Assembly: GCA_018304325.1 (NCBI GenBank)
Contig: JAGVWM010000008.1
Location: forward strand, 1 to 35,477
DNA length: 35,477 nt
Origin: Candidatus Pacearchaeota archaeon
GTDB lineage: Archaea; Nanobdellota; Nanobdellia; Pacearchaeales; GW2011-AR1
Reading direction: 5' to 3'
Shown here: piece after piece, positions 16,671 to 18,724 of the stretch
Numbering within the stretch: position 1 is the stretch's first letter
Layout of the letters: each line of letters starts with the position of its first letter
Position numbers and translations under genes: made by a program
Notes under the pieces: model-generated
Database searches by the model: none
Seen by the model: the letters and a program-made list of their open reading frames with translations, nothing else
What the model was told of the DNA's origin: nothing

Positions 16671-17632
16671 TTATTTCTTAAATTTATAACTATCTGCCCA
16701 TTTTGCATAAGCCTGCCAGCCTTGAAAGCTTTTGTCCAATTTATCTTTACTGATTAGCCCTTCATTAAATATTTTTATTTTCATTTTCATATTTCTAATG
16801 TTTCTTTTTCTTAAAAGTTTAAAATGGTAGAAATTTCTAAATCCTACAAAATCTATTCCTTGAGATAATTTAGTTATTTTAGATTTATTATGGTGTAATT
16901 TTAATTTTAACTCTTTCTGCAAAAATTCATCAATCTTAATTTTCCATTCTTCAAGTTGTTCTTTAGACTGATGTAAAATAATAAAATCATCTACATATCT
17001 AATATAATACTTAGCTTTTATTTTATGTTTAACAAAATAGTCTAGCTCATTAAGGTATATATTCGCAAAAAATTGCGAGGTTAAATTTCTCTAATCGCGT
17101 TATTATCAGTTATTTTTTTAATTAATATAATAGTTTGTTCATCACTAATCTCTTTTCTTAACAGTTTTATTAATATATCTCTATCAACTTCTTCAAAATA
17201 ATGTTTTATATCTGCTTTCAAACAATATGCTTCTGAATTAAGGTTATTTGTAACTTTTCTTTTGAATTTCTCTAGTCTTTTTAATGCAAATAAATTACCT
17301 TTTCCCTTCCTGTTTGCACATGAATCATAAATGAATGATTTATCAAAAATAGGATCTAAAACTCTGACTAAAGCATGATGAACAATTCTATCTCTAAAAT
17401 CTGATTTAGCAATTTTGCGAGTCTTTGGGTCTCTTAAAATAAATATTTTTAATTTTTTAGGAAAATAAGTTTCATTTTTTAATTCTTCATGCAATAAAAG
17501 TAAATTTCTGAGAGTATCTTTTTCAAACTCTTTAACATATAGTTTTTTTGTCTTTCCTTTTCTTGCTTTTCTCCAAGCTAAAAGTAGATTGCTCAAATTA
17601 TAAATTTCAGGATAAAGATTATTATATTCCAT
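16671..17632 (-). pseudogene. DGR-type reverse transcriptase, split by a one-base frameshift
   Basis: Two minus-strand frames form one reverse transcriptase. The first (17632 to 17081) has FRDRIVHHALVRVLDPIFDK, YDSCANRKGKG and motif A LKADIKHYFEEVD (Asp141). It stops at 17083. The next frame continues with motif B NLTSQFFANIYLNELD, then motif C YVDD (16986-16997) and thumb GIDFVGFRNF. Adding one base within AGAGAAAT (near 17086-17091) restores a 320-codon protein reading RGNLTSQ, matching the GxxxSQ form of motif B typical of DGR enzymes (other RTs have QGxxxSP). The full span plus one base is exactly divisible by three. Start at 17632, 20 bp downstream of the TR (on its strand). It copies TR RNA into mutagenised cDNA. 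Confidence 0.88.
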
Positions 17633-17642
17633 ATTAAATAAC

Positions 17643-17752
17643 TAGCCAGCTGGACCATTCTACCATTCGAGTTGGAATTAGACAAGTTCCTGTTGTTGGA
17701 GTTCAAGTTCGAGTTCCTGTTGATGTAAAGCCTCGAAAGGATGTAGCCAGCT
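17643..17752. repeat. 9-bp direct repeats bracketing the TR
   Basis: TAGCCAGCT occurs at 17643-17651 and 17744-17752, immediately outside the two ends of the TR. Neither copy is found around the VR, so they are not part of the TR/VR homology. They may mark the borders of the template RNA element or a past duplication. Confidence 0.5.
17653..17740 (-). repeat. DGR template repeat (TR)
   Basis: This 88-bp non-coding segment aligns without gaps to 18056-18143 in the target gene. There are 17 mismatches; 16 are at template adenines on the minus (coding-sense) strand (28 adenines in total) and only one (G17730 against A18133 on the plus strand) is not. Read in the target's frame the TR is full of AAC/AAT asparagine codons, the usual design that lets adenine mutagenesis reach many residues while avoiding stops. 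It lies between the target gene and the reverse transcriptase, 20 bp before the latter's start codon. Confidence 0.95.
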
Positions 17753-17920: not shown

Positions 17921-18724
17921 TTATTTTTTATCTTGCAAAATACCTATTGCAGTTGCATATCTAACATCAACTTCAGCTTTTAATCTTGTTCTTTCTTGAT
18001 TAAGGTTTGCTATGTAATCTTCTAAATTTGGCGCGACGCCTTCGGCGTCAACGACGACCACCCTACCATCCGAGTCGGAATCAGACAAGAGCCAGTTGTA
18101 GGAGAACAAGTACGAGTACCCGTAGATGAAAAACCTCGAAAGGCCGTCTTGTCTTGTATATAAAGTTTTAGATCCATTATCTTCAAATATTGGTATTCCT
18201 CTTTCATCTACTCTCGAAAATTTTTTTTGGTTATTTAAATGATCTAATTCAGGAGCTTTAAAATATTCAAAATTTTTCCCAGGAACTAAAATCAATCCAT
18301 ATTGAGAATTATCATCTTCTTTTAATTTTAACCCAGTTAAAACATAAGAATGTTCAAAGCTTCTATCAATAGATTTAGCAAGCTCTTTTGCTAATAAATC
18401 ATTTGGATTATGAGAATCTCCATTACTTCTTAAAACAACACTAGCAACATCTTCATAAGTTCCACTTAGAAAACCAGAATTTGCATACCAAATATTGTAC
18501 AATTGAGAAGTATTTGCAGTTCTTATTCCTAGATTATTTAATAAAATAACTTTAGGTAAATTTGATCCCTTTTGAGAAACAGCTAAGGTTTTTCTTGCCT
18601 TTTCTGAATTAAATTCTTTAACAGCTTCATCATATTTAGTTTGTTCTTCACTTGATAAAAATCTAGCTCTAGGCCTGCTTGCTTCTCTTATTTCTCTAGG
18701 TATTAATTGAACATAGTTTTCCAT
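17921..18724 (-). CDS. DGR target protein with C-type-lectin-like variable region
   Basis: A 267-residue protein whose residues 195-223 are encoded by the VR. This part reads GLSRFFIYGYSYLFSYNW then SDSDGRVVVVDAEG, matching the GLSR...DGRVVVV framework of C-type-lectin-fold DGR targets (Mtd/TvpA-like). The N-terminal 190 residues contain a helical opening (REIREASRPRARFLSSEEQ) and a domain with LYNIWYANSGFLSGTYEDVA. A 44-residue helical tail (NLEDYIANLNQERTRLKAEV) follows the VR, unusual because the VR normally ends the protein. No signal peptide or membrane segment is seen, so the protein may act inside the cell or leave by a non-Sec route. A TATA box lies 22-29 bp upstream. Confidence 0.9.
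   Translation of the reverse strand: MENYVQLIPREIREASRPRARFLSSEEQTKYDEAVKEFNSEKARKTLAVSQKGSNLPKVILLNNLGIRTANTSQLYNIWYANSGFLSGTYEDVASVVLRSNGDSHNPNDLLAKELAKSIDRSFEHSYVLTGLKLKEDDNSQYGLILVPGKNFEYFKAPELDHLNNQKKFSRVDERGIPIFEDNGSKTLYTRQDGLSRFFIYGYSYLFSYNWLLSDSDSDGRVVVVDAEGVAPNLEDYIANLNQERTRLKAEVDVRYATAIGILQDKK
18035..18049. promoter_or_regulatory. GC-rich hairpin beside the VR (IMH-like site)
   Basis: GACGCC-TTC-GGCGTC is a perfect 6-bp GC-rich stem lying 6 bp beyond the 3' end of the VR on the coding strand. DNA hairpins/cruciforms just downstream of the VR are known to promote target recognition in other DGRs, next to the initiation-of-mutagenic-homing sequence. It is absent from the TR side, which explains directional transfer. 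It is translated as part of VDAEGVA. Confidence 0.7.
18056..18143 (-). repeat. DGR variable repeat (VR) in the target gene
   Basis: Homologous to the TR at 17653-17740 with a constant offset of 403 bp. Relative to the template-encoded protein, 13 residues are replaced through adenine changes: Y199F, N201Y, R202G, N203Y, N205Y, N207F, N209Y, R211W, N212L, N215D, N217D, N219D and M222V. R221 is silent. L198F comes from the single non-adenine change. The aromatic enrichment resembles a ligand-binding surface selected from diversified variants. Confidence 0.95.

Follow-up and report, generated by a model that had tools for sequence, protein, structure and literature searches.

The window (i.e., the whole stretch of 35,477 nt that was analyzed) is contig C35 of a 663-kb archaeal genome (39 contigs; 75% complete). 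It carries an antisense DGR cassette flanked by secY and an EMC3/TMCO1-like gene, with ribosomal protein genes, prefoldin, and an STT3-like gene as further neighbors. No prophage genes were found among the ten neighboring genes scanned around the DGR. Given this result and the secY and EMC3-like flanks, the cassette is chromosomal, and the target gene belongs to a chromosomal archaeal DGR. An adenine-specific TR/VR repeat, an adjacent DGR-type RT (out of frame), and an IMH/IMH* pair with a hairpin were all present at the locus.

The target gene (positions 17921 to 18724 of the minus strand, on which all features below also lie; ATG at 18724, stop codon ending at 17921) encodes a protein of 267 amino acids. 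This protein consists of a core (residues 1 to 193), the VR (194 to 223), a spacer with the hairpin-coded residues (224 to 230), and a helical tail (231 to 267). The VR (18056 to 18143) is an 88-nt repeat of a noncoding TR (17653 to 17740) situated between the target and the RT. The sequence GGTAGGGTGGTC at the 3' end of the VR (18056 to 18067) and its TR counterpart GGTAGAATGGTC (17653 to 17664) differ by GGGT versus GAAT; because this contrast recurs in relatives with a TR, we identify the two as the IMH and IMH*, respectively. The IMH codes for the invariant GRVVVV stretch of the target. The open frames between the target and the RT included a 49-amino-acid frame overlapping the TR, and none other was Avd sized as judged by frame size. 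The RT itself is split. Its N-terminal part (183 amino acids; 17081 to 17632) ends after a frame break (17088 to 17101) located just before the GMPLGNLTSQ site, while its C-terminal part (NLTSQ ... YVDD; 16671 to 17087) is in another frame.

The TR and VR differ at 17 of 88 nt, and 16 of these mismatches are at TR adenines (binomial P = 1.3e-7). A genome-wide comparison showed no close copy of this repeat other than the TR and the VR. Adenine changes affect 12 target residues (198, 200, 201, 202, 204, 206, 208, 210, 211, 214, 216, and 218), at which F, Y, G, Y, Y, F, Y, W, L, D, D, and D, respectively, are now present. The sole non-adenine change in the VR is L197F, while M221V reflects the IMH*/IMH difference (GAAT in the TR, GGGT in the VR), which is shared with relatives. 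With ten AAY codons in the template and no variable codon convertible to a stop, about 1.7e13 proteins are possible. The preliminary description of this DNA had placed the VR internally (residues 195 to 223), with mostly Tyr, Phe, Trp, and Asp as the diversified residues and with neither an export signal nor a membrane anchor in the protein. Our analysis agrees on all three points: 44 residues separate the VR from the C terminus, the named residues predominate at positions 198 to 218, and no 19-residue stretch reached the hydrophobicity of a signal or membrane helix, either in the target (maximum, 0.59 on the Kyte-Doolittle scale) or in its family (maximum, 1.59).

The target had no credible domain match in Pfam, PHROGs, or NCBIfam, and neither the protein nor its profile credibly matched any PDB chain, including AvpA (5IOO). 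A whole-protein AlphaFold model based on an alignment of the window protein and three relatives reached a pLDDT of 36, too poor to be read for the C-type-lectin face named in the preliminary description. Scans of genome and viral contig collections with single proteins or a small alignment detected no relatives, and the same kind of contig scan with another small alignment detected three. When 200 genomes of the order were searched at the protein level, 47 had relatives. By analogy with AvpA, the variable residues displayed by the core would form a ligand-binding face.

Further DGR components are present in the same genome. Contig C13 (L037:1-170 and 414-530; G000:C13) has an intact RT beside a TR-like stretch of a second target class, and the VR of its target is cut by the contig end. 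On contig C2 (L035:4035-5265; G000:C2), a target whose tail is cut short runs directly into a truncated RT; this fusion appears to stem from a deletion that removed the TR and the RT N terminus. The window TR showed no convincing match to the other targets of the genome (the target on C34 was covered over part of the VR), and no TR was found for the C34 target in a scan of its full locus. Two contigs terminate within VRs (the end of L038 and the start of L037), as expected if VR diversity in the population broke the assembly. In four other loci (L044, L064, L093, and L102), two or three adjacent targets have VRs that match a single TR, and single DGRs thus serve several genes.

Hairpin and C-terminal tail of the target

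A DNA hairpin, GACGCC-GAA-GGCGTC (18035 to 18049; residues D226 to V230), starts 6 nt beyond the VR and lies within the target frame. Its sequence was computed to fold as single-stranded DNA. Hairpins of this type mark targets in Bordetella phage work, as summarized in PMC4372165 and PMC5006420. Of 56 loci, 29 have at this site a stem of 5 bp or more closed by a three-base loop, compared with 4.2 ± 2.0 in shuffled sequence; the loop was GAA in 23 loci, nearly always in frame.

We aligned the hairpins of 17 tailed loci, excluding three tailed loci that lack this hairpin. Of the stem cells in this alignment, 90% were paired, and double-sided changes were present in five of the six stem pairs. 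None of 500 shuffles matched the hairpin in terms of either paired cells or covariation score (these counts are not probabilities, since the loci are related), and slid versions were likewise far off. The inner pair is either C-G or G-C, an alternation that converts Ala-Glu-Gly to Gly-Glu-Ala; since the stem covaries across relatives, the encoded peptide follows the DNA pairing. Variation at the second and third codon positions was 0.48 and 0.46 in the hairpin, 0.29 and 0.48 in the core, and 0.38 and 0.52 in the tail. The compensatory stem changes and a second codon position as variable as the third argue, at the level of sequence comparison, that selection keeps the DNA hairpin and not its peptide. 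The VR is internal because the frame runs through this target-recognition hairpin. Because the frame stays open through it, the hairpin codes for a short linker, of secondary importance, leading into a 37-residue amphipathic helix.

The frame can also close within the hairpin. The loop codon is a stop in L099:4120-4884, with TAA replacing GAA, and a TAA is likewise contained in the loop in L051:5054-5836. In these two loci, a one-base change in the loop decides between tail and no tail.

The C-terminal tail (residues 231 to 267; 17924 to 18034) has counterparts in many genera. Among the extracted loci, about two dozen have post-VR tails of 28 to 71 residues, whereas the others are shorter, with about half of the relatives terminating within 20 residues past the VR. 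On a tree of 49 target cores, the tail was gained or lost at least 10 times; the group containing the window target (10 rows; support, 99/96) comprises nine tailed members and one short member. Modeled alone with AF2, residues 222 to 267 formed one helix at 234 to 266 (pLDDT of 85 to 94 in its middle). Over 22 tails, the hydrophobic period was 3.65 (z = 14.8 relative to shuffles), and prolines were few. The tail is thus predicted to be one amphipathic helix, possibly built on an 11-residue repeat, and not a heptad coil. From the amphipathy of the helix alone, we infer that it may dock the target protein onto a partner or onto its own copies. Because the helix changed many times among the relatives, it would be an accessory module for attachment that lies outside the binding face.

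Oligomerization through a coiled coil, which would make the target multivalent, was the idea put forward in the preliminary description, and the continuity of the amphipathic helix is in its favor. The helical tail anticipated there is indeed predicted, but a period of 3.65 suits a plain amphipathic helix or a hendecad better than the heptad value of 3.5 of a classical coiled coil, and AvpA was reported to be monomeric, with a disordered extension (PMC5006420). We therefore regard multivalency through such a coil as possible but rather unlikely.

It is less plausible still that the tail is functionless filler, kept open by the presence of the recognition hairpin in the gene. Sequence change is faster in the tail than in the core (29% versus 50% identity within the clade of the window target), which would also fit weak constraint, and the many gains and losses on the tree point the same way. 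However, filler would hardly retain an amphipathic period far above that of shuffles together with a scarcity of prolines. In some relatives, moreover, the hairpin sits at or beyond the stop, and no filler is therefore needed to accommodate it. The second target class, from the same order, also has a tail of 57 residues that is 52 to 81% identical in nine other genomes (hairpin, AGCGCC-AGA-GGCGCT).

Several short genes are followed by remnants of a tail. The remnant in L042 is in frame behind one stop (profile E value, 2e-6), and that in L048 is in another frame (profile E value, 3e-9). Three more were read by eye: one in another frame (L063), one behind the stop in the hairpin loop (L099, TAA for GAA), and one cut by the deletion into the RT (L035). 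Truncation, not extension, is therefore the common accident, and the tail is inherited, as indicated by these remnants behind stops and frameshifts and by the homologous tails in many genera. The search for homologues with the same tail that the preliminary description had called for thus yielded them, in the same frame, and its alternative of a frame extended past the original stop does not stand, given that several short relatives are truncated tailed genes. That a frameshift or lost stop lengthened the frame is, despite the many relatives that end soon after the VR, extremely improbable in view of the same frame and shared helical pattern of the tails and the remnants, and it is already refuted for the almost uniformly tailed clade of the window target.

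Repeat tracts in related RTs

The window RT retains YVDD and also NLTSQ, which belongs to the GN.TSQ motif that replaces the group II motif in DGR-type RTs, and it is 61 to 75% identical to an intact RT with LGNLTSQ. At its break, 14 nt are present, compared with about 33 to 42 nt in intact relatives; it has neither a repeat tract nor the residues preceding NLTSQ. Given the loss of these residues, the window RT is probably dead. Because this RT is out of frame and its motif is partly missing, the VR would be frozen unless the intact RT on C13 serves it.

Among 102 distinct RT linkers, 52 have repeats directly before KGMPLGNLTSQ, a share (51%) that is no census because the set was drawn from the matches listed and broken genes were fetched on purpose. 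All were known from single assemblies, with one genome per species. The tracts are either G6 to G13 (once C11) or GA repeats of 4 to 27 units. Of the repeat-bearing RTs, 19 (37%) were in frame, close to one third (P = 0.66), and 13 and 20 were in the other two frames. In contrast, 48 of the 50 repeat-free RTs (96%) were in frame (Fisher P = 4e-11); the two exceptions were the window RT and one RT with an interrupted G tract. The out-of-frame RTs were otherwise intact, with no other stop in 31 of 33 and YxDD kept in 32 of 33. Elsewhere in the class, in RTs from other orders, the linker site contained G9, G9, G10, G12, G27, and (CT)11. Runs of at least nine G or C, of which 0.06 were expected in the 451 kb of fetched DNA (32.5% GC), were listed at least seven times, five of them in RTs. 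In five loci (L059, L091, L092, L093, and L102), an out-of-frame RT accompanies VRs full of adenine changes, and these cassettes were therefore active earlier.

Linker repeats (G6 to G27 or GA/CT) were observed in loci L049, L059, L091, L092, L093, L112, L115, L152, L154 to L184, L200, L210, L216 to L219, L221, and L224. A second poly-G site (G10 to G12) occurs near residue 244 (about 241 to 247) in L102:2548-2559, L185, and L187; there again, the frame is broken and CGA follows the tract.

The linker repeats look like slipped-strand phase variation of the mutagenic RT. A tract, mixed frames, and an otherwise intact gene, as in contingency genes, are features of the RT class and not of the window RT. 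Judging from the 102 relatives, RTs of this group would be switched by repeat slippage at the linker site. Slippage of poly-G or GA in an RT loop would toggle hypermutation, so that lineages alternate between diversifying and keeping their binding proteins, with the window cassette locked off; we lean toward this interpretation. A literature search found no report of a repeat-tract switch in an RT (many subscription papers were outside its reach), and an on/off switch at this site looks to be unreported.

Assembly errors or dead genes could produce broken linkers in place of a switch. The sequences come from assembled genomes of uncultivated organisms, with each species represented once; long G runs are difficult for assembly, and the window RT, which has lost the repeat and motif residues, is probably really dead. 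Such causes would nevertheless have to account for the presence of two unrelated kinds of repeat at the same site across several orders, for out-of-frame genes that almost all lack another stop and keep YxDD, and for repeat-free genes that are nearly all in frame. We thus consider this explanation unlikely. Programmed ribosomal or transcriptional frameshifting at the repeat, by which the RT would still be made, is compatible with breaks at a fixed place with a slippery sequence. Since all three frames occur among the repeat-bearing RTs, however, no single shift rescues every RT, and the half of the RTs that are free of repeats read straight through; frameshifting of this kind therefore seems improbable.

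Overall account and relation to known systems

Taken as a whole, the account that we judge likely is that of a chromosomal DGR target with an in-frame hairpin kept by selection, an optional docking helix, and a group of RTs switched by slippage. The target extends a known archaeal design, in which an in-frame recognition hairpin is followed by an optional helix, and its family is large enough for covariation to indicate that the DNA hairpin, not the peptide, is kept. If the repeat tracts do act as switches, they would explain how a cell can halt the rewriting of a binding protein that works well, and one hypermutable element would control another.

The tracts resemble the poly-G and other repeat-tract contingency loci of bacteria such as Campylobacter and Neisseria (PMC8355987 and PMC5084427) in that repeats within the reading frame occur with mixed frames. 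Unlike those bacterial loci, the tract sits in an archaeal DGR RT and is known here from single assemblies. The cassette shares a TR, a VR, an IMH, a downstream hairpin, and adenine mutagenesis with the Mtd DGR of Bordetella phage BPP-1, whereas the Mtd VR is C-terminal, its hairpin has a four-base GRNA loop, and its gene is a phage gene with no coding tail beyond the hairpin (summarized in part in PMC4372165).

The preliminary description also held that the VR is C-terminal in most DGR targets. This statement is valid generally (PMC8144416), but an internal VR is common among archaeal targets (PMC5006420), and the layout is not the exception that it was taken for, as AvpA and other nanoarchaeal targets have the same one. 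The usual argument for C-terminal VRs is that cis elements must escape coding constraint (PMC8144416), and a kept in-frame hairpin qualifies this argument.

The closest counterparts in layout are archaeal. AvpA has an internal VR, described by its authors as common among nanoarchaeal targets, a hairpin inside the coding sequence, and a 46-residue extension that was predicted to form two helices and was invisible in the crystal (PMC5006420). In the DUSEL4 Nanoarchaeota, every hairpin has a GRA loop and is located within the target gene, and the IMH*/IMH sequences are TGGAAT/TGGGGT (PMC4372165). The window target thus has in common with AvpA and the DUSEL4 targets an internal VR, a helical C-terminal extension, and a three-base-loop hairpin within the gene (PMC5006420 and PMC4372165); with the DUSEL4 systems it also shares a G-rich IMH, an IMH* with AA, and the presence of multiple DGRs and RT-less targets within one small archaeal genome (PMC4372165). 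The second target class, examined as a candidate AvpA relative, matched neither any PDB chain nor, by profile, the window family, and its resemblance to AvpA is one of motif. Unlike AvpA, the window family has no sequence match to any solved structure; the stretch after the VR is GRVVVV in the window target and an RFxGV strand in the AvpA type, and one tail helix is predicted instead of two. The demonstrated likeness to AvpA is one of layout. As the same layout has been published for AvpA, the window target joins a design already known from archaea.
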